A stretch of DNA of 64,000 bases from Polyangium spumosum (GTDB lineage Bacteria > Myxococcota_A > Polyangia > Polyangiales > Polyangiaceae), in assembly GCF_009649845.1 (NCBI RefSeq), contig NZ_WJIE01000016.1, positions 1-64,000 of the forward strand. The letters run 5' to 3'. This document shows positions 30,520 to 40,367 of the stretch, in pieces. Position numbers and translations under genes: made by a program. Each line of letters starts with the position of its first letter. Positions within the stretch are counted from its first letter, which is position 1. The notes beneath the pieces were generated by a model. It made no database searches. It was given only the letters and a program-made list of their open reading frames with translations, and was not told the origin of the DNA.

Positions 30520-30648
30520 ATCGACCCGCCCCGAAGGCTCTCCCCTCCGCTGCTGCACGCGCCCGGATCCACCTCGTCCCCATTCCTCGACGTACCTGCA
30601 TCCATCCGGATCCACCTCGCCCCCGTTTCTCCCGGCGTTCGCCCCGAA
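30520..30648. repeat. Second tandem array, three 43-bp units
   Basis: The units begin at about 30520, 30563 and 30606. The last two share CCGGATCCACCTCG followed by C/T-CCCC and TTC/TCTC at the same offset; the first is more diverged (CACATCGACCCGCCCC). The unit is distinct from the 41-bp array upstream. The array lies between the palindrome and the LuxI-like gene. The period is not a multiple of 3. Confidence 0.55.
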
Positions 30649-30735: not shown

Positions 30736-31521
30736 ATGTCGAACATCCGCTGCATCATCGCCGAAACCCAGAGACACCTCGACGACGCCGTCCGCGTCCG
30801 CTTCGACGTCTTCGCTCGCGAGCTCGGCTACCTCGATTCGAGCGACCACGTCACCCCGCGCGAGCTCGATCCCTTCGATACCCTCTCCACCACCCTCCAC
30901 CTCGTCGCTTATGACGGCGACCTCGCCGTCGGCACCCTCCGCCTCCTCCTCCCCAACCCCGAGATCGCCGCCACGAATGGCGCCGCCTTCGGCCTCTCCG
31001 TCGAGTCCCATTTCGACCTCGCCCCGCTCGCCGCTGCAGGCCTCCGGCTCGCCGAGACCTCCCGGTATTGCGTCCGCGCCACCCACAGAAACTCCATGGC
31101 CACGGCCGAGCTCCACGCCGCCGCCGTCCACCTGAGCCGCGTCCTCGGCGTCGACCACTGGATTGCCGCGGCAAACACCGAGACCGACGGCCTCGAGGAC
31201 GCCCGCCTCATGCAACACGTCGCCGCCGAGCTCGGCTTCGTTCGGAACGATCTCCTCCTCTCCCCTCGCCTCCCGCCGCCGCTCCCCCCCGCCGCGCCGC
31301 GACGACCCTTCTTCGACGATCAGGCGCGAAATCAGGCGAAGACCTCGCCCTCGCGATCACGACTCCCCCGCACCCTCGACCTCTACACCCGCCGCATGCG
31401 CGCCCGCCTCGTCGGCCCTCCCGTCTACGACCCGCGCTTCCGCATGTGCGCCCTCCCCCTCCTCGCGGCCGTCGCCGAGCAACGCATCGTCCGGCGCCAC
31501 GCGGGATCCATTGCCGCTTGA
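30736..31521 (+). CDS. LuxI/FeeM-like N-acyltransferase (GNAT-fold signal synthase candidate)
   Basis: ATG 30736 follows GGAGG at good spacing. The 261-residue protein fits the LuxI-type acyl-homoserine-lactone synthase pattern: R22 and F26 in RVRFDVFARELGY, E43-x-D45-x2-D48 (ELDPFD) followed by TTLHLVA, R69 (TLRLL), and E107-x-S-R110 (AETSRY). The related FeeM-type N-acyl amino acid synthases share this core, so the acyl acceptor is uncertain. The C-terminal 85 residues are an extra Pro/Arg-rich segment ending with a motif (RLVGPPVYDPRFRM) common in FeeM-like proteins. The product is probably an N-acylated small molecule. The diiron oxidase gene follows after 15 bp, so they are likely one operon. 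Confidence 0.75.
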   Translation: MSNIRCIIAETQRHLDDAVRVRFDVFARELGYLDSSDHVTPRELDPFDTLSTTLHLVAYDGDLAVGTLRLLLPNPEIAATNGAAFGLSVESHFDLAPLAAAGLRLAETSRYCVRATHRNSMATAELHAAAVHLSRVLGVDHWIAAANTETDGLEDARLMQHVAAELGFVRNDLLLSPRLPPPLPPAAPRRPFFDDQARNQAKTSPSRSRLPRTLDLYTRRMRARLVGPPVYDPRFRMCALPLLAAVAEQRIVRRHAGSIAA

Positions 31522-31536
31522 ACGATAAGGAGCATC

Positions 31537-32214
31537 ATGATGACCTCCCTCACCGACACCCTCGACCACACCGTCTCGGACCTGCTCCGCGCCCTCGACG
31601 CGCACCCCGCCGCCCGCCGCCTCCTCGAAGGAGACCTCTCCACCGACGAGTACGCGGCCTTCCTCGGACAAACGTATCTCTACGTCCGCCATACCCGCCC
31701 CTTGCTCCGCCGCGCCGGCGAGCGGCTCGCGCGAGCGGGCACGTCCCCCGACCTCGCTCGGCTCTTCCTGCAAAAAGCCGAGGAGGAGCAGGGACACGAG
31801 GCGTGGGCCCTCGAAGACCTCGCCCGCATCGGCCGCCCCCTCGAATCCGGCGCGCCCCCGCGGCCCTCGTACGCCGTCGCCGCTTACGTCGCGTGGAACC
31901 AGTTCCAGGTCGAGGCCGGCTCGCCCCTCGCCTTCCTCGGCACCGCCTACGTCCTCGAAGCCCTCTCCCTCGCCCGCGCCGGCAAGGCCGCCGAGCGCCT
32001 CGTCGCGCGGGGGCGTATCGCCGGCATCGAGCGCGGCGTCCGCTTCCTCCGCGGACACGCCGACGCCGACGAGGGGCACGTCGACGCCCTGCGCAGCCTC
32101 TTCGCGCGGCTCGACTCCACCGAAGACCGCCGCGCCATCGCGCTCTCGGCGGCCGTCACGGCGGCGCTCTACCTCGGGATGTTCTCTACCGCTGGCGCCA
32201 CGCCATGTGAATGA
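31537..32214 (+). CDS. Heme-oxygenase-like diiron oxidase family protein
   Basis: The start is ATG 31537 or 31540, after TAAGGAG. The 225-residue all-helical protein has the metal-ligand set of heme-oxygenase-like diiron oxidases: E84-x2-H87 in AEEEQGHEAW, E141 in AYVLEALS, and H174-x3-D178-x2-H181 in RGHADADEGH. These enzymes oxidise or cleave fatty acids, amino acids and related groups. Coupled to the LuxI/FeeM-like gene 15 bp upstream, it might tailor the acyl product. The gene end overlaps the convergent LuxR-type gene by 29 bp. A plain TenA or PqqC role is not excluded, but the full ligand pattern argues for a metal oxidase. Confidence 0.82.
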   Translation: MMTSLTDTLDHTVSDLLRALDAHPAARRLLEGDLSTDEYAAFLGQTYLYVRHTRPLLRRAGERLARAGTSPDLARLFLQKAEEEQGHEAWALEDLARIGRPLESGAPPRPSYAVAAYVAWNQFQVEAGSPLAFLGTAYVLEALSLARAGKAAERLVARGRIAGIERGVRFLRGHADADEGHVDALRSLFARLDSTEDRRAIALSAAVTAALYLGMFSTAGATPCE

Positions 32215-33262
32215 GGGCGGCGCGGTTCGGGATGCCGAGCTTGTCGAAGATGTGGGAGAAATGCTTCTTCACGGTGAGCTCCGTGATGCCGAGCTCGGAG
32301 GCGATGAGCGCGTTGTCCCAGCACACGCGCTCGGCGACCTTGAGCTCCGCCGCCGTCAGGACCTTCAGCCACGCGGCGGGGACCGGCACGAGCTGGGGGA
32401 CCTCCTCGAGCACCATCACGAACGACCCGCCGCTGAAGCTCGGCAGCGTCTGAATCGACACCTTCAGCTCGGCGTGCGCGCCGCTCCGCCAGAACGGATC
32501 CGGCGGCAGCGCAGGCTTTTGCTTCACCATCGACGCGAGGCGCGCGGCGAGCGGGGCGGGCAACGCGCCCTCGAACTCGGTCGGCTTGAACCAGGCCTCG
32601 AGCATCTTCTCCGCGCTCGCCGTCCGCGCGATCTCCGCGCCCGACGGCCCGAACACGATCGCCTCGTGCCCGAGCCCCGAGAGGATGCCGTCGAGCAACG
32701 ACGCCCGCTTCGCCATCGCCCCGAAGCTCCGGCAGTTCTTCACCGCGTTCGTGAAATACCGCGGCAGCTCCTGCAGGATCGCGCGCTCGCGGTCCGAGAA
32801 TGGGATCCGCTTGTCCCGGTAGAGGATGAGCCCCCCGTGCCACGAAGGATCCTCGCGCAGCATGACGGCCATCACGTGCTCGAGCCGCATGCCGATGTCG
32901 CGGCAGTGGTTGTAGAGGTAGCTCCGCTCCATGGCCACGCGCGGGAGCATCTCGGTGTCGCGAAGCACCTCGTTCGGCCGCTCGGCCACGGCGATCCGGA
33001 CGAAGTCGTGCGGGACCATCTCGCCGTAGCCCTGGAAAAACCCCTCGGGCATCTCGGCGACCGCCCAGTCGTAGACGGCCTGCCCTTCGGGCCGGCTCAC
33101 GCAGAGCGCCCCGTGATCCGCCGGCACGAGCCGCGAGAGCAGGCCATACGCCCGGCCGAGCACCTCGTGCAGATCGAGAGATCCGCCGAGCTCCGCCACG
33201 AGGTCGAACATGAGGCCCTGCTCATGCTGCGTGAGATCCGGAGGCCCCCTCATGCGCGCCAT
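32186..33262 (-). CDS. GAF-domain LuxR-type transcriptional regulator
   Basis: ATG 33262 follows AGAGGG at 6-nt spacing. The 358-residue protein has a GAF-like sensory region (about 10-175) and a C-terminal LuxR/FixJ HTH (about 300-355: LTAAELKVAERVCWDNALIASELG then TVKKHFSHIFDKLGIPNRAAL). No AHL-binding domain or receiver domain is visible, so its ligand is unknown. It is convergent with, and overlaps by 29 bp, the LuxI-like/diiron oxidase operon, and lies 23 bp downstream of the FHA-sigma54 activator gene on the same strand. Confidence 0.85.
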   Translation of the reverse strand: MARMRGPPDLTQHEQGLMFDLVAELGGSLDLHEVLGRAYGLLSRLVPADHGALCVSRPEGQAVYDWAVAEMPEGFFQGYGEMVPHDFVRIAVAERPNEVLRDTEMLPRVAMERSYLYNHCRDIGMRLEHVMAVMLREDPSWHGGLILYRDKRIPFSDRERAILQELPRYFTNAVKNCRSFGAMAKRASLLDGILSGLGHEAIVFGPSGAEIARTASAEKMLEAWFKPTEFEGALPAPLAARLASMVKQKPALPPDPFWRSGAHAELKVSIQTLPSFSGGSFVMVLEEVPQLVPVPAAWLKVLTAAELKVAERVCWDNALIASELGITELTVKKHFSHIFDKLGIPNRAALIHMAWRQR

Positions 33263-33285: not shown

Positions 33286-34809
33286 TCAACGTCCGCCTTC
33301 GTCTCGGCCCTTCGAACCCGGTCCGCTCCGCCCGGCCACGTGGGGCCACGAGCGCGCCTCGGGCGAGGCCAGCGGATGCTTCCGATACCATTGATAAAGC
33401 GCGTGCCCCGGCGGCGGCGGCGCCCCGCCCCCATCGGCTCCCCCGCCTCCCTTTTCATCGGGCGCGACGTCCTCGTTGCTCGACCGGATCTCGTACTTTC
33501 GCATCATCTTCTGGACGAACGCCCGCCCCACGCCCGCGATCCTCGCGGCTTGCGACACGTTGTACCCCGTCTCCCGCAGCGCCCGCTCCACGTAGGCCCG
33601 CTTGTAGGCGTTCTCCATGTGCGAGAGCCCCACGTGCAGAGGCAACTCGAGGTTCACCGGGAACCTCGCCGAAGGCGCCTCCTCCGTGTCGTCCGCTGCC
33701 CAGGGCGGCTCGTCGAGCCCGAGCGAGAGCATCATCTCCACCTTGTTCCGGAGCTCCCGCACGTTCCCCGGCCAGGGCCGCGGGTGGGCCTTCATTCGCT
33801 CGAGCACCTCGTTTGGCAGGAGCGGCGGCGCGTCCTTCCGCCCTTGCCATTCCTTCTCGAAATGGCGCACGAGCAGGGGGATGTCGTCGAGCCGCTCCCG
33901 CAAGGGCGGCACCTTCACCTGCACGACGGCCAGCCGATAATAAAGATCCTCGCGGAACCTCCCGCGCTCGACCTCGGCCGAGAGCGAGCGGTTCGTCGCC
34001 GCCACGATCCGCACGTCCGCCCGCCGCGGCTCGTTCTCGCCGACCCGGGTGATCGTGCGGGTCTCCAGCGCCCGGAGCAGCTTCGGCTGAAGCGAGAGGG
34101 GCAGCTCGCCGATCTCGTCGAGGAACAACGTCCCGCCGTGCGCCGCCTCGAAGCGGCCCACGCGGTTCTCGGTGGCGCCCGTGAAGCCGCCGCGCCGGTG
34201 GCCGAAGAGCTCGCTCTCCAGCACGCCCGCGCTCACCGACGAGCAATCGAAGACCATGAACGGCCCGCTCGCGCGCGCGCTCTCCTTGTGGATCGCCGCG
34301 GCCACGAGCTCCTTGCCCGTCCCCGTCTCCCCCTCGACGAGCACCGTCGCGTTCGTCTTCGCGACCCGCTCGAGCAGCGCGAAGAGCCGCCGCATCGGCA
34401 CGCTGGCGCCGACGAGCCCCCCGAAGCTCGTGCGGGACGAGAGCGGCAGCACCACCACGTCTCGGATCATCTGCAGCCGCAGCCCCGAGGTGCCGAGCCC
34501 GATCGCCGAGTCGGGCCGGGCGTAGGCGTCGCGGATCCGGACGCCGTCGACCGACGTCCCATTGCGGCTGCTCGTGTCGATCACACGCAAGAGATCGCCC
34601 TCGATGCGGAGGAGCAGGTGGTGCCGGCTCACGGTCGGGTCGTCGAGGACGAGATCACAGTCCTTCCCGCTCCCGACCTTCACCTCCGGCCCGAGCACCT
34701 CCGTGACGACCCCTGCCATGGGCCCTCGGCTCACCTCGACGCGGATTTTATGCGTCCGGAGCTCGAGCCCCCTGTCGGCCTCCATGGTCCAGGTATTCCA
34801 GTCCTTCAT
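33286..34809 (-). CDS. FHA-domain sigma54-dependent transcriptional activator
   Basis: It activates sigma54 RNA polymerase in response to phospho-Thr binding. ATG 34809 gives 507 residues. The FHA domain (about 25-115) has SRHH (61-64) and SRNG (81-84). The AAA+ domain has Walker A GETGTGKE (160-167), the sigma54 loop GGFTGA (207-212, in place of GAFTGA) and Walker B FLDEIGE. A Fis-type HTH (about 430-460, [20 protein letters not shown]) and a Gly/Pro-rich C-terminal tail follow. FHA-sigma54 activators are expanded in myxobacteria, where they answer to Ser/Thr kinases. Two short inverted repeats lie upstream of its start. Confidence 0.92.
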
Positions 34810-36360: not shown

Positions 36361-38973
36361 TCAAAGTCGCGGATCGACCGGCTCGCTCTCCAGGGCGAGG
36401 ATCGCAAAGACACATTCGTGTACCCGCCGCAGCGGCTCGCCCCGGACGAAACGCTCGAGCGCCTCGACGCCGAGCGCGAGCTCACGGAGCGCGAGCGACC
36501 GCTTCGCGCCGAGGCCACGATTGCGGAGCCGCGAGAGGTTCTCCGGCAAATCGTACTCCGGCCCATAAATGATCCGGAGATACTCACGGCCGCGGCATTT
36601 CACCGCCGGCTGCACGAGCCCACGTTTGCCCCGGGCGAGGAAGGAGATCGGCTTCACGACCATCCCCTCGCCGCCCTCCGAGGTGAGCTCCTCCCACCAC
36701 ATCACGCCCGCCCGCTCGCTCTCCTCGTCGCCGGGCGTGACCTCCACGTGCTCCGTGCAGCAGAGGACCTCTCGCCCGTCCGCCTCCGCGAGCCGCGCCG
36801 CCGTTCGCAGGTGGAAGAGATGGTCCTGATCGACGAACACGCGCCCCTCGGCCGCGAGCAGATGAAAAGGTGCGACGCGATAATCCTCGATACGCTCGAC
36901 GGGCCAGCAGTACGGCGCGTAAGCGTCGACGTAGCGCGAAGCGGCCCGCGCCCGCGCCTGCATCCGCTCGAGGAGCGCGCCGGCCTCGATCCCGCGCGCC
37001 TGCGCCTGCGAGAGCGCCTCGACCGCGCCCCCGAGCGAGGACCGGGCCGCGCTGCCCACGGGGGCGTATTGCGTCCGGACGAGCGCCTGCGCCTTCGCCG
37101 ACCACGGCATGATCTCGGCGTCGAGCACGAACCACGGCCCGATCTCCTCGAAGAGCCCGCTCGCCTCGGCCGCGCGCCGCAAGCGCGAGAGCAGCGCCTC
37201 TTCGAGCGCCCGATCGTCGAAGAATGGCCTCCCCGTGCGCGTGTACACGATGCCCGCGCGGCCGTCCGTCGCGCCAAACCGCTTCTTCGCCGTCGCGTCG
37301 TCGCGACAGACGACGATCACGGCCCGCGAGCCCATGTGTTTCTGTTCGCAGATGACGCGCGGGACGTCATTCCGCCGGAAATACGCGAACGCCTCGGCCG
37401 GGTGCTCCAGCGTGCCCGGGAGCTCGCTCGTCTCGGTCGGGGACATCGTCGGCGGCAGGTGGACGAGCCAGCGCGGATCGACGGCGAACCGGCTCATCAC
37501 CTCCAGCGCCGCCGCCGCGTTCTCCTCGCGCACCGTGACCCACCGGGCGAGGCGCGTGTTCACGGGCCGCTTGCCGATCACGTCCTCGATGTCGAGCGTA
37601 TCGTCGTGCTGCTGCTGCGCTGTGCGATCTCCCTCGGAGGTCGCGGGGACGAGCGGCCTCTTGGGCTCGCAATATGGACGCGCCGCCGGCACGCTGACGA
37701 TCTCGCGCTCGGGGTACCGCAGCGCCGTGAGCGCGCCGCCGAAGACGCAGCCCGTGTCGATGCAGATCGTGTTGTTGAGCCAGTCGGCCGTGGGGACGGG
37801 CGTGTGGCCATACACGACCGTCGCGCGGCCGCGATAATCGGCCGCCCAGTCGTGCCGCACGGGCAAACCATATTCGTCCGTCTCGCCCGTCGTGTCCCCG
37901 TAGAGGCCGAACTCGCGCACGCCGCCCGAGGAGCGCCCCTGCATGGACGCCTTCATCCCGGCGTGCGCCACGCAGAGCTTGCCGTCGTCGAGCACGTAAT
38001 GGCTCACGAGCTCGTCGATGAAGCGCGCCACGTCGGCCTTGAAGGCGTCCGTCACGCCCTCGAATTCGGCGAGCGTCTCGGCGAGGCCGTGCGTGACCGC
38101 GACCTTCCGACCCCGCAAGACCTTGAGCAACTTCACCTCGTGGTTGCCCGGCACGCAGAGCGCGGCCCCGCTCGCGACGGCCGTCATGACGAGGCGCAAG
38201 ACGTCCACGATCCGCGGACCCCGATCGACGAGATCCCCGAGGAAAATGAGGCGCCGGCCCGGCGGCGCGGTCACGCGGACGCCGTGCGGGGCCGCCGCGG
38301 GATCCCACGCGACCGTGTAGCCGAGGTCCTCGAGCAGCGCCTCGAGCTCGTCGCAGCAGCCGTGCACGTCGCCGATGACGTCGAAGGGCCCGTGCTCGTC
38401 GCGCCGATCGGTCCAGAGGCGGGTGCGCTCGAGGGTCACGTCCTCGATTTCCTCGGGCCTCCGCAGCACGTGCACCACGCGAATGCCCTCGCGCTCGATC
38501 CCGCGCAGCGAGGCGCGTAGCTCCTGCGACTGGCGCCGCACCACGTGGGCCGCGACGTTTCGATCTGCGCGGCCCTCGTTCCGCTCGGCGCAGACCCGCT
38601 CGCCCACGTCGAGCGCGATCGCCGTGACGAAGACGTGGTGCTTGCGCGCGATCGAGACGAGCGGCTTGCGATACTCGGGCCGCACGTTCGTCGCGTCGAC
38701 CACCACGAGCTTGCCGGCCTCGAGGCGTTTGTCCACGACCAGGTGCAGCACCTCGAACGCCGCCGCCGACGCGCTCTGATCGTTCTCGTCGTCCGAGACG
38801 AGCGCGCGGAAGCTGTCGGACGAGACGACCTCGGTCGGCGCGAAATGCCTCCGCGCGAAGGTGGTCTTGCCAGAGCCCGACGCGCCGAGCAGCAGGACGA
38901 GGCTCGGCGTCGGCAGGGTGATCGTGCGGCCTTTCGCGGGAGCCGTCTCCGCGCCCTGGGTTTCCGTGCTCAT
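36361..38973 (-). CDS. Polynucleotide kinase-phosphatase-ligase (bacterial Pnkp)
   Basis: This trifunctional RNA repair enzyme heals and primes ends of broken RNA. ATG 38973 overlaps the Hen1 stop (ATGA). The 870-residue protein (as in Clostridium thermocellum Pnkp) has an N-terminal kinase P-loop GASGSGKT (30-37), a metallophosphatase domain (D202 and H204 in GDVHG; GDLVDRG; GNHE at 276-279), and a C-terminal ligase-type adenylyltransferase domain with the nucleophile K545 in EQKHMGSRAV. Pnkp and Hen1 work together on RNAs cut by ribotoxins, adding a 3' 2'-O-methyl mark that blocks repeat cleavage. Confidence 0.93.
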   Translation of the reverse strand: MSTETQGAETAPAKGRTITLPTPSLVLLLGASGSGKTTFARRHFAPTEVVSSDSFRALVSDDENDQSASAAAFEVLHLVVDKRLEAGKLVVVDATNVRPEYRKPLVSIARKHHVFVTAIALDVGERVCAERNEGRADRNVAAHVVRRQSQELRASLRGIEREGIRVVHVLRRPEEIEDVTLERTRLWTDRRDEHGPFDVIGDVHGCCDELEALLEDLGYTVAWDPAAAPHGVRVTAPPGRRLIFLGDLVDRGPRIVDVLRLVMTAVASGAALCVPGNHEVKLLKVLRGRKVAVTHGLAETLAEFEGVTDAFKADVARFIDELVSHYVLDDGKLCVAHAGMKASMQGRSSGGVREFGLYGDTTGETDEYGLPVRHDWAADYRGRATVVYGHTPVPTADWLNNTICIDTGCVFGGALTALRYPEREIVSVPAARPYCEPKRPLVPATSEGDRTAQQQHDDTLDIEDVIGKRPVNTRLARWVTVREENAAAALEVMSRFAVDPRWLVHLPPTMSPTETSELPGTLEHPAEAFAYFRRNDVPRVICEQKHMGSRAVIVVCRDDATAKKRFGATDGRAGIVYTRTGRPFFDDRALEEALLSRLRRAAEASGLFEEIGPWFVLDAEIMPWSAKAQALVRTQYAPVGSAARSSLGGAVEALSQAQARGIEAGALLERMQARARAASRYVDAYAPYCWPVERIEDYRVAPFHLLAAEGRVFVDQDHLFHLRTAARLAEADGREVLCCTEHVEVTPGDEESERAGVMWWEELTSEGGEGMVVKPISFLARGKRGLVQPAVKCRGREYLRIIYGPEYDLPENLSRLRNRGLGAKRSLALRELALGVEALERFVRGEPLRRVHECVFAILALESEPVDPRL

Positions 38974-40367
38974 CGGGAGAACACCGCCATTTGCGTGGGA
39001 GAACCCAGCGTCTCGTCGATCGGCCCGATCGGGGCGAGCCGGACCGCATACCCATGGCGCGCCGCCACGCCGCCCGCCCACGCCTCGAATTCGGCGCGCG
39101 ACCATTCGAACCGGTGATCCTTGTGCCGCATGCGGCCCGCGGGCAGCGCGGCGAAGAGGGCGTTGTATTCGGCGTTCGGCGTCGTCACGACGACGACGCG
39201 GGGGCGCGCGTGCTCGAAGACCACGCGCTCGAGCGCGCCGAGGCGCGAAGGTTCGAGGTGCTCGATGACCTCCACGAGCGCGGCCGCGTCGAAGCCGGAG
39301 AGGCGCGCGTCGCGGTAGAGCAACGAGCCGTGCAGGAGCTCGACGCGCTCGGATTTCCGGCCGCCGTGCCGATCGAGCTTGAGCCGCTCCGAGGCGACGT
39401 CGAGCGCGCGTTGCGAGACGTCGACGCCCACGATCCGCGTGAACGTCCGGTTTCGTACGAGCTTGCCGATGAGCTTGCCCTCGCCGCAGCCGAGGTCGAG
39501 CACCGTCACGGCGCCCTCGTCCGAGAGCGCCCGCGCCACCGCGTCGAGCCGCGCCTCGTCGAGGCGCACGGGGGCCTCGATCGCGGCCTCCTCCTCGGCG
39601 TGCGCGGAGGCCTCCGCGTCGGGATCTTTGGCCTCGCCCGCGACGAGCCGATCGAGCGCCGCGCGCGCGAGGCGCGTCCGGTGCTTGAGGTACCGACGCG
39701 CGATGAGCTCCTTTTCGGGGTGCGTCGCGAGCCACCCCTCGCCGTGGTAGACGAGCTTCTCCACCTCGTCGTCGCCGACCCAGTAATGCTTGTCGTCATC
39801 GAGCACGGGGACGAGCACGTACAGGTGCGAGAGCAGCTCCACGAGCGGGCAGCTCCTGCGCAACGTGACGTCGTGGTGCGCGCCCTCGCCCCAGGCGGGA
39901 AACCGCTCGTCGAGCGGCATTCGTTCGGCCGTGACCTCGTAACCGAGCGGCTCGAAGAGCGCGCGGAGGAGCGCCGCGCCGCCCCGGCAAGGCACCGCGG
40001 AGAGCTTTGCCTCGAGCGGGATCGGCGTGGCGACGAGCTCCGGGCGATCCTTGCAGCGCCCCGCGAGCGCCGAGCCGAGCACCTGCGCGATGGCCACGCT
40101 GAGAAACGACGACGCGGCGTAGGGCCGGTCGTTCACGTACTGATCCACGAGCCCGCCCTCGGAGGAGCCGGGCCTGCCGCGCACGAGGGCGACCGGATCG
40201 AGCTCGACGAGCAGCGCGGCCGTCACGGCCTCGTCGGCGGCCTCGGGGTAAAACACGTGCGCGCGCCCGAAAGCGAGGGGGAAGGTCTGGAGTTTGTCGG
40301 GGTGCTTGTGCAGCAAGTACCCGAGCCCCGACGCGTGTGGACCCGTGGCGCGGAGGGTGAAGAGCAT
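38970..40367 (-). CDS. hen1: RNA 3'-terminal 2'-O-methyltransferase Hen1
   Basis: Hen1 methylates the terminal 2'-OH before ligation by Pnkp. ATG 40367 gives 465 residues, the length of the C. thermocellum enzyme. The N-terminal half is the Pnkp-activating domain. The methyltransferase has the SAM loop DLGCGEGKL, and the metal ligands E366, E369, H370 (EVIEHL) and H418 (HKDHRFEW) sit at the numbered positions known for the clostridial protein. It overlaps pnkp by 4 bp. A longer frame upstream lacks similarity. Together these two genes form the known bacterial RNA repair cassette. Confidence 0.95.
   Translation of the reverse strand: MLFTLRATGPHASGLGYLLHKHPDKLQTFPLAFGRAHVFYPEAADEAVTAALLVELDPVALVRGRPGSSEGGLVDQYVNDRPYAASSFLSVAIAQVLGSALAGRCKDRPELVATPIPLEAKLSAVPCRGGAALLRALFEPLGYEVTAERMPLDERFPAWGEGAHHDVTLRRSCPLVELLSHLYVLVPVLDDDKHYWVGDDEVEKLVYHGEGWLATHPEKELIARRYLKHRTRLARAALDRLVAGEAKDPDAEASAHAEEEAAIEAPVRLDEARLDAVARALSDEGAVTVLDLGCGEGKLIGKLVRNRTFTRIVGVDVSQRALDVASERLKLDRHGGRKSERVELLHGSLLYRDARLSGFDAAALVEVIEHLEPSRLGALERVVFEHARPRVVVVTTPNAEYNALFAALPAGRMRHKDHRFEWSRAEFEAWAGGVAARHGYAVRLAPIGPIDETLGSPTQMAVFSR

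Follow-up and report, generated by a model that had tools for sequence, protein, structure and literature searches.

Which function links an acyltransferase, a diiron oxidase and a LuxR-type regulator that are encoded side by side in the myxobacterium Polyangium spumosum? The three genes are found in a stretch of 64,000 nucleotides (contig NZ_WJIE01000016.1, positions 1 to 64,000; assembly GCF_009649845.1), in the following called the window, from a genome of 10.76 Mb in 61 contigs. An earlier note on this DNA had described them as a candidate signalling or lipid-metabolite module with a LuxI-like synthase. The respective features are:

30736..31521, + strand: gene 1, 261 aa; FeeM-type N-acyltransferase (LuxI superfamily), putative signal synthase
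31537..32214, + strand: gene 2, 225 aa; predicted heme-oxygenase-like diiron oxidase (HDO), putative tailoring enzyme
32186..33262, - strand: gene 3, 358 aa; LuxR-type regulator with a ligand-binding (GAF/autoinducer-binding-like) domain, a middle domain and a helix-turn-helix

Genes 1 and 2 are both encoded on the + strand with a spacing of 15 bp, and genes 2 and 3 are arranged tail-to-tail (convergent) with an overlap of 29 bp. When re-checked in the sequence, the genes, their motifs, the gap and the convergent overlap were found where the earlier note had placed them. This includes the residues R22, F26, E43, D45, D48, R69 and E107-x-S109-R110 of gene 1 as well as the ligand set E84-x2-H87, E141 and H174-x3-D178-x2-H181 of gene 2.

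In the following, we show that the three genes recur and co-vary as a module. Whether the locus is a self-contained, autoregulated signalling unit for an oxidised N-acyl product is, in our judgement, evenly balanced; its chemistry and its sensing would follow from family, fold and gene context.

Recurrence and co-variation of the three genes

We searched 144 genomes of the order Polyangiales for homologues of gene 1 and obtained 14 matches in 12 genomes. Ten of these are strong (E 2.7e-11 or better), and the four weakest (L054-L057, E 5.5e-7 to 6e-6), which have no adjoining oxidase match, were excluded from the strong set. The oxidase adjoins all 10 strong FeeM homologues and the regulator is present at 9/10 of these loci. 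The most divergent trio (L053) shows identities of 26, 25 and 36% for genes 1, 2 and 3, respectively.

The most common arrangement is FeeM-HDO with a convergent LuxR gene. The order HDO-FeeM-LuxR on a single strand is found in L051 and in Sorangium So0157-2 (L074), HDO-FeeM also in L052, and So ce26 (L075) shows FeeM-HDO followed by a 634-aa gene and LuxR. Since the order of the trio varies, a single inherited synteny block does not explain the linkage. None of the other genes called at L051 and L053 clusters with genes of the remaining loci. Apart from the trio, no called gene is common to these two loci and, therefore, no larger pathway is visible.

A contig scan with two short peptide patterns provided 11 loci, all from Myxococcota and including Pyxidicoccus, Myxococcus vastator and two Corallococcus. 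Whole-genome searches of seven scan genomes identified two full modules each in three of them (M. vastator and the two Corallococcus); the two of C. llansteffanensis are L119 and L120. Pyxidicoccus carries FeeM and HDO at one site and HDO and LuxR at another. Within the Myxococcaceae, i.e., the family of C. llansteffanensis, 61/96 genomes encode a module-type oxidase (E 1e-30). Among the 30 best-scoring loci of this longer list, which include at least 4 loci seen in the preceding whole-genome searches, 23 have all three genes within 1.5 kb on either side.

Next, we compared the protein distance matrices of 15 full modules; this set includes four of the six Polyangium modules and none of the Myxococcaceae loci found later. 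The distances correlate with r 0.957 (FeeM-HDO), 0.905 (FeeM-LuxR) and 0.832 (HDO-LuxR), where shared ancestry of the modules adds to the values, and each correlation is reached by 0/9,999 permutations. Paralogous modules from the same genome (G133 a/b, C. llansteffanensis 1/2, M. vastator 1/2) have the same partners in all three protein trees, and the trees disagree in their deep branches and in the placement of L053. The synthase and receptor genes are inherited as a unit, with exceptions that are weighed below.

That the three genes form a module, which the earlier note had deduced from operon spacing, overlap and chemistry, is thus strongly supported: they recur together in Polyangiales and Myxococcaceae despite order changes and their proteins co-vary. 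The synteny comparison across Polyangiales that it had proposed found the joint conservation of the genes.

A phylum-wide search for the regulator, in which at most 5 candidates were scored per genome, matched 6/377 genomes (four from the window's genus and two weak partial matches). We do not deduce from it that the regulator is rare, because many full-length regulators from Myxococcaceae that were missed there turned up later. In a plasmid collection, we found 2 weak matches to gene 1 and 24 to gene 2, and no trio in the three regions viewed. Two proteobacterial plasmid operons (L157:4922-8456, L159:3885-7559) encode a T_hemolysin-family protein, an AMP-binding protein, an iron-containing redox enzyme and an SDR oxidoreductase.

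Gene 1 is a FeeM-type acyltransferase

The earlier note had hinted at acyl-homoserine lactone (AHL) synthesis and had proposed a hidden Markov model comparison of gene 1 with Autoind_synth and FeeM. Here, gene 1 scores above the cut-offs of the Pfam models Acetyltransf_5 (54.5 bits, cut-off 22.4) and FeeM (PF21926; 49 bits, cut-off 27) and fails that of Autoind_synth (PF00765; 18.1 bits, cut-off 24). Respective results are observed for its relatives, where Acetyltransf_5 and FeeM both match 15/15 and Autoind_synth matches 2/15 (E 0.01). Given these profile matches, a grouping with generic GNATs, which had been considered as the contrary outcome, is not observed. Among NCBIfam models, neither ornithine N-acyltransferase (OlsB; 49.1 against a cut-off of 350) nor exosortase-associated acyltransferase (48.6 against 111.95) is reached, and the match to the TraI model is far under its cut-off.

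The AlphaFold model of gene 1 (pLDDT 87) is most similar to FeeM (2g0b; Z 17.1, root-mean-square deviation 2.4, 168 aligned residues with 17% identity in the aligned part). A GNAT (Z 14.2), RpaI (14.1) and BjaI (14.0) are found in later rows of the structural comparison. When the profile of the gene 1 relatives is compared with PDB sequences, the GNAT YjcF (1q2y) is the top match (6.3e-6), followed by BjaI (1.3e-5) and RpaI (0.0015).

We also evaluated the conservation of the motif residues. R22, D48, R69, E107 and R110 are invariant in all 15 aligned relatives, F26 and E43 are kept in 14/15 each, and D45 is kept in 8/15, where the aligned Myxococcaceae sequences have S, T or N instead. The motifs of both enzymes are considered to be beyond chance since most of their residues are invariant among the aligned relatives (15 for gene 1, 16 for gene 2). 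The conserved core of LuxI enzymes consists of R, F, W, E, D, D, R, E and R, with the conserved W in the region that corresponds to positions 31-34. No W is found at these positions in any of the 15 aligned relatives, such that gene 1, without the W and with a variable D45, departs from the LuxI core set.

Because of the profile scores, the nearest fold, the missing W and the variable D45, we classify gene 1 as a FeeM-type member of the LuxI superfamily; by profile, fold and residue tests it is not an AHL synthase. The hint at AHL synthesis is not supported, given the Autoind_synth score and FeeM as the nearest fold. Family and fold suggest that gene 1 would acylate an amino acid or amine.

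Gene 2 is a predicted diiron oxidase

Gene 2 matches Haem_oxygenas_2 (PF14518) with 60.5 bits (cut-off 28.9), and so do 16/16 of its relatives (E 0.01). For the TenA/PqqC model PF03070, no match of gene 2 is found up to E 1; the model matches 6/16 relatives (E 0.01, best 1e-4), i.e., more weakly than Haem_oxygenas_2. A placement with thiaminase or PqqC, which the earlier note had named as an outcome against its assignment, is therefore not what the profiles show. Compared with PDB sequences, the gene 2 profile finds 3dde (1.3e-21), UndA (4e-4), CADD (4e-4) and, weakly, MboA (0.05).

The residues E84/H87, E141 and H174/D178/H181 line up with the ExxH motif, the mid-helix E and the HxxxDxxH motif of UndA. 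E84, H87, H174, D178 and H181 are invariant in 16/16 relatives and E141 is kept in 15/16. Similar results are observed for the 30 Myxococcaceae oxidases, where all six ligand positions are kept except for a Y at position 178 in one sequence. According to the available part of PMC13185094, the canonical HDO ligand set comprises three His and three Glu/Asp, which are E86, H89, E143, H172, D176 and H181 in MboA. Gene 2 has the three His and three Glu/Asp ligands and is a predicted heme-oxygenase-like diiron oxidase. The same part of that source describes the substrate carboxylate of MboA as bound to Fe1, as in AetD, UndA, HrmI and PolF. The carboxylate-on-Fe1 binding of known HDOs therefore supports an N-acyl amino acid as a possible substrate of gene 2, by analogy only.

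Gene 3 is a LuxR-type regulator

The GerE model matches gene 3 with 42.1 bits (cut-off 23.5) as well as 18/18 of its relatives, with L125 just under the cut-off. Pfam does not assign a sensor domain to gene 3. The structure model (pLDDT 82.6, pTM 0.55) consists of three parts. Residues 11-181 align best with CepR2 (Z 16.0, 161 aligned residues, 2.7 A), followed by LasR (15.7). Rows 1-24 of the structural alignment (Z 16.0 to 13.9) are all receptors of the LuxR type or ligand-binding domains of such receptors, and the best GAF domain comes next (13.9), where it has to be considered that GAF and autoinducer-binding folds are related and that the pTM of 0.55 limits the fold comparison. Residues ~190-290 form a second alpha/beta (middle) domain, which is missing in the L051 regulator and leaves a plain LuxR layout there. 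A search of the same genome for paralogues of gene 3 found none at E 0.001.

We conclude only that the sensor is predicted to be a ligand-binding domain of the GAF/autoinducer-binding superfold with a shape nearer to AHL receptors. The assignment as a LuxR-type regulator by the earlier note stands, while its statement of a GAF domain in place of an autoinducer-binding domain overstates the contrast, as the predicted fold aligns best with domains of AHL receptors.

Paired repeats upstream of gene 1

Two direct repeats are found upstream of gene 1:

30553..30573, + strand: candidate operator, first copy of the direct repeat (CTGCACGCGCCCGGATCCACC); starts 183 bp upstream of the gene 1 start codon
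30596..30616, + strand: candidate operator, second copy of the direct repeat (CTGCATCCATCCGGATCCACC); starts 140 bp upstream of the gene 1 start codon

Two such repeats of ~21 bp are common to 6/6 Polyangium loci, and all 21 bases of the second copy are identical across the six. The copies are spaced by 43-44 bp, i.e., about four helical turns. At each of the six loci, the direct-repeat score is reached by 0/200 shuffles. A diverged pair with the same spacing of 43-44 bp is found in L126 (0/200 shuffles) and L050 (1/200). L051 and L125 were compared with the Polyangium repeat pattern alone, which does not fit.

As a control, we located the exact repeat pattern in six Polyangium genomes and compared it with the backward pattern. 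This provides 12 matches, of which 11 are in front of the module operon, and 0 matches for the backward control. The twelfth match (G000:C1:1481908, L160) is from the window's own genome. We treat it as a chance match because it is within a long open frame and without counterpart in the five other genomes, where no exact match was found outside the module. When as many as 2 mismatches are tolerated, 7 matches are obtained in the window's genome, four of them with 2 mismatches, versus 3 for the backward control. Within the window and with up to 3 mismatches, two matches occur in 7/100 shuffles and are thus not rare; both real copies are exact. Given these numbers, only the exact form of the repeat is telling. 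The pattern was derived from the module sites themselves, so its weight rests on its near-absence elsewhere. The repeat is nearly private to the module, which suggests a small regulon, perhaps the module operon alone. Gene 3 would be the candidate to bind the paired repeats.

Other upstream elements were seen by eye. In most of 15 aligned Myxococcaceae loci, a dyad like CGGCG-YGA-CGCCG is located ~30-45 bp before the FeeM start. L051 and L125 show a dyad TGCTGCA-N3-TGCAGCA upstream of the first module gene, with one mismatch in L051.

Proposed mechanism and alternative explanations

Combining the above, the mechanism of the proposed signalling unit would be as follows. The FeeM-type enzyme would couple an acyl chain with an amino acid or amine. 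The diiron oxidase would take this N-acyl product, plausibly with its carboxylate on Fe1 as in several known HDOs, and desaturate, decarboxylate or hydroxylate it to the mature signal, which may then be secreted. The N-terminal domain of gene 3 would sense the oxidised N-acyl product, and gene 3 may act at the paired repeats before the synthase gene in a positive or negative feedback.

The order of the two reactions may also be reversed, which is compatible with the signalling unit: a free amino acid or amine would then be oxidised by gene 2 before gene 1 acylates it. Several HDOs act on free amino acids, and the HDO-FeeM order of L051, L052 and L074 would fit as well; gene order, however, says little about reaction order, and nothing found here separates the two. 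We consider this variant unlikely, albeit with an appreciable probability.

Several observations weigh against a signalling unit. With regard to linkage, the regulator is missing at L052 (identical to L073), a Byssovorax metagenome-assembled genome, where FeeM and HDO are located close to the start of a contig and a genome-wide search identified no full-length regulator. Among the best-scoring 30 Myxococcaceae loci, 4/30 have oxidase and regulator without FeeM, 2/30 have FeeM and oxidase with no LuxR gene within the 1.5-kb flank, and 1/30 has the oxidase alone, at a contig end; each genome with one of the four synthase-less loci holds at least one other oxidase locus. L118 combines FeeM and LuxR without HDO. 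Furthermore, regulators of the gene 3 family with neither synthase nor oxidase in the fetched flanks are found at L115:7401-8489, L121:1974-3005 and L124:1872-2927. With regard to the individual components, the oxidase of the outlier module L053 has a serine in place of E141, and the paired repeat is unseen in L053, L117, L122, L123 and L113 (5/13 modules scored). The sensor domain is likewise ambiguous by other measures. GAF models match 7 to 9 of 18 gene 3 relatives, mostly weakly, and the L051 regulator is the sole one of the 18 with GAF above the cut-off. Autoind_bind (PF03472) finds nothing in gene 3 and matches 1/18 relatives (L051), with 18.4 bits below the cut-off of 23. When ranked by Foldseek E-value, bacteriophytochromes come first and SdiA sixth. 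In the PDB, the profile of the sensor domain matches only GAF-type chains, weakly (best 0.0067), with no AHL receptor among these matches. Finally, product, binding and expression are all predicted from the genes, and pathway-specific regulators are equally normal beside the biosynthetic genes of ordinary metabolites.

This last point leads to the main rival explanation, i.e., a minimal biosynthetic cluster whose product is an N-acyl lipid or a bioactive metabolite (similar to ornithine lipids, a surfactant or an antibiotic) and whose pathway regulator senses another cue (for example redox state or, via GAF, a primary metabolite), such that the product is no signal. The ornithine-lipid and exosortase-associated acyltransferases that are the nearest NCBIfam models of gene 1 would fit such a cluster, yet all are far under their cut-offs. 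The GAF matches among the 18 regulators point in the same direction, as do the other pairs of an oxidase and a FeeM-type enzyme in Polyangiales (L036, L058, L059, L061), where a search of the fetched L058, L059 and L061 provided no match to gene 3 (L036 was not searched for gene 3). On the other hand, regulator and synthase co-vary (r 0.91) and remain linked through rearrangements, the predicted sensor fold is closer to AHL receptors than to GAF domains, and L051 and L053 share no transporter or further pathway gene. We regard a metabolite cluster as a serious contender, though one with clearly less than an even chance.

It is very improbable that the locus is a true AHL system with gene 1 as the AHL synthase, gene 2 as an accessory enzyme and gene 3 as the AHL receptor. 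BjaI and RpaI are indeed found in the PDB by the profile of the gene 1 relatives, the R/E/D/R/E/R core positions are mostly present and AHL receptors provide the best structural alignment of the predicted gene 3 sensor. Yet the top match of the same profile is the GNAT YjcF, FeeM is the closer fold for gene 1, and AHL synthesis proper was set low given the failed Autoind_synth cut-off (matched by only 2/15 relatives), the W missing in all 15 and a D45 kept in only 8/15. The probability that the genes are chance neighbours without functional link is negligible: we found no point in support, and chance adjacency is rejected based on the counts of trio recurrence in two large groups, the changing order and the co-variation, unless the samples mislead. 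The explanation that we prefer remains the signalling unit for an oxidised N-acyl product.

Neighbouring genes and other acyltransferase-oxidase pairs

Outside the conserved module, the following gene is found next to gene 3:

33286..34809, - strand: neighbouring regulator; sigma-54-activator-like with an FHA-like N-terminus (by eye, from its sequence)

It ends 23 bp before gene 3 and is possibly co-transcribed with it. Of the Polyangiales loci that we compared, only the 5 others from Polyangium and L050 have its cluster, which is missing from L051 and L053. Further along the window, at 36361-40367 on the - strand, two large proteins are encoded that by eye are a putative RNA-repair pair (a polynucleotide kinase-phosphatase-ligase and a partner).

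FeeM-type acyltransferases beside HDO-family oxidases are found elsewhere in Polyangiales at L036, L058, L059 and L061. In L036:2124-3089 (+) and L058:10612-11724 (+), the FeeM-type acyltransferase is fused to a cyclic-nucleotide-binding domain, with the oxidase adjoining. Because such pairs occur elsewhere in the order, we guess that FeeM and oxidase are perhaps the older pair to which the module regulator was added later. GNATs of other families are located beside HDO-family oxidases in L034 and L063. In L034, L039 and L063, a GNAT-like protein, an oxidase and a putative YcaO-like protein (by eye) are encoded in a row, where the GNAT of L039 is likewise putative.

With regard to the modules themselves, oxidase and convergent regulator are separated by a conserved open frame of 86 aa in two modules from Myxococcaceae (L114:7192-7452 and, on the + strand, L117:3745-4005). 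The solo regulators L115, L121 and L124 are possible solo receptors.

Comparison with known systems

Gene 1 resembles FeeM (2g0b; PF21926), whose profile cut-off it passes and which is its best structural match. It differs from FeeM in sequence, with 17% identity in the aligned part, and in adjoining a diiron oxidase and a LuxR-type regulator. With LuxI/LuxR systems, the locus shares a LuxI-superfamily synthase beside a regulator with a predicted sensor fold nearest to CepR2 and LasR in structural alignment as well as candidate paired binding sites before the synthase gene. In contrast to them, gene 1 fails the Autoind_synth cut-off and is without the LuxI tryptophan, the module includes a diiron oxidase, and its regulator usually has an extra middle domain (not in L051) and a sensor that fails the Autoind_bind cut-off. 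The six ligands of gene 2 align with UndA, their numbering is close to the MboA set and the closest solved chain is 3dde, while the partner genes and the probable substrate differ from those of UndA, MboA and CADD.

A myxobacterial synthase of the LuxI superfamily is also known from Archangium gephyra. In the available part of PMC7862692, its AgpI is described as a solo AHL synthase and LuxI homologue without a cognate LuxR in the genome, whereas the synthase of the module is of the FeeM type and has a regulator gene in linkage. The HDO mining in PMC13185094 targeted, as far as the available part states, ATP-grasp neighbours. Such a module was not seen in the accessible parts of a review on N-acylated aromatic amino acids (PMC8762209) and of a paper on an Acinetobacter HDO-domain protein (PMC13232832). 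In the literature searched, the scope of which leaves out most subscription journals, we found no description of such an oxidase in linkage with a FeeM- or LuxI-type synthase.

Discussion

In the part of PMC7694542 available, quorum signalling is called absent from most myxobacteria, and a LuxR homologue is reported for each Myxococcaceae genome except C. llansteffanensis. Here, this very exception carries two full modules. More generally, the trio recurs in many relatives that are mostly thought to be without such communication.

We therefore tentatively consider, at slightly less than an even chance, an unrecognised and widespread acyl-signal system of myxobacteria. Here, a FeeM-type enzyme would provide an N-acyl amino acid that is desaturated or decarboxylated by the oxidase and perceived by a dedicated LuxR-type receptor with private, paired operators, and several such channels may run in parallel per genome. 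If this is true, oxidases of the HDO fold would have a role in signal maturation, and the question could be addressed by placing three genes in a laboratory host. These social predators would then use multi-channel acyl signalling based on new chemistry.

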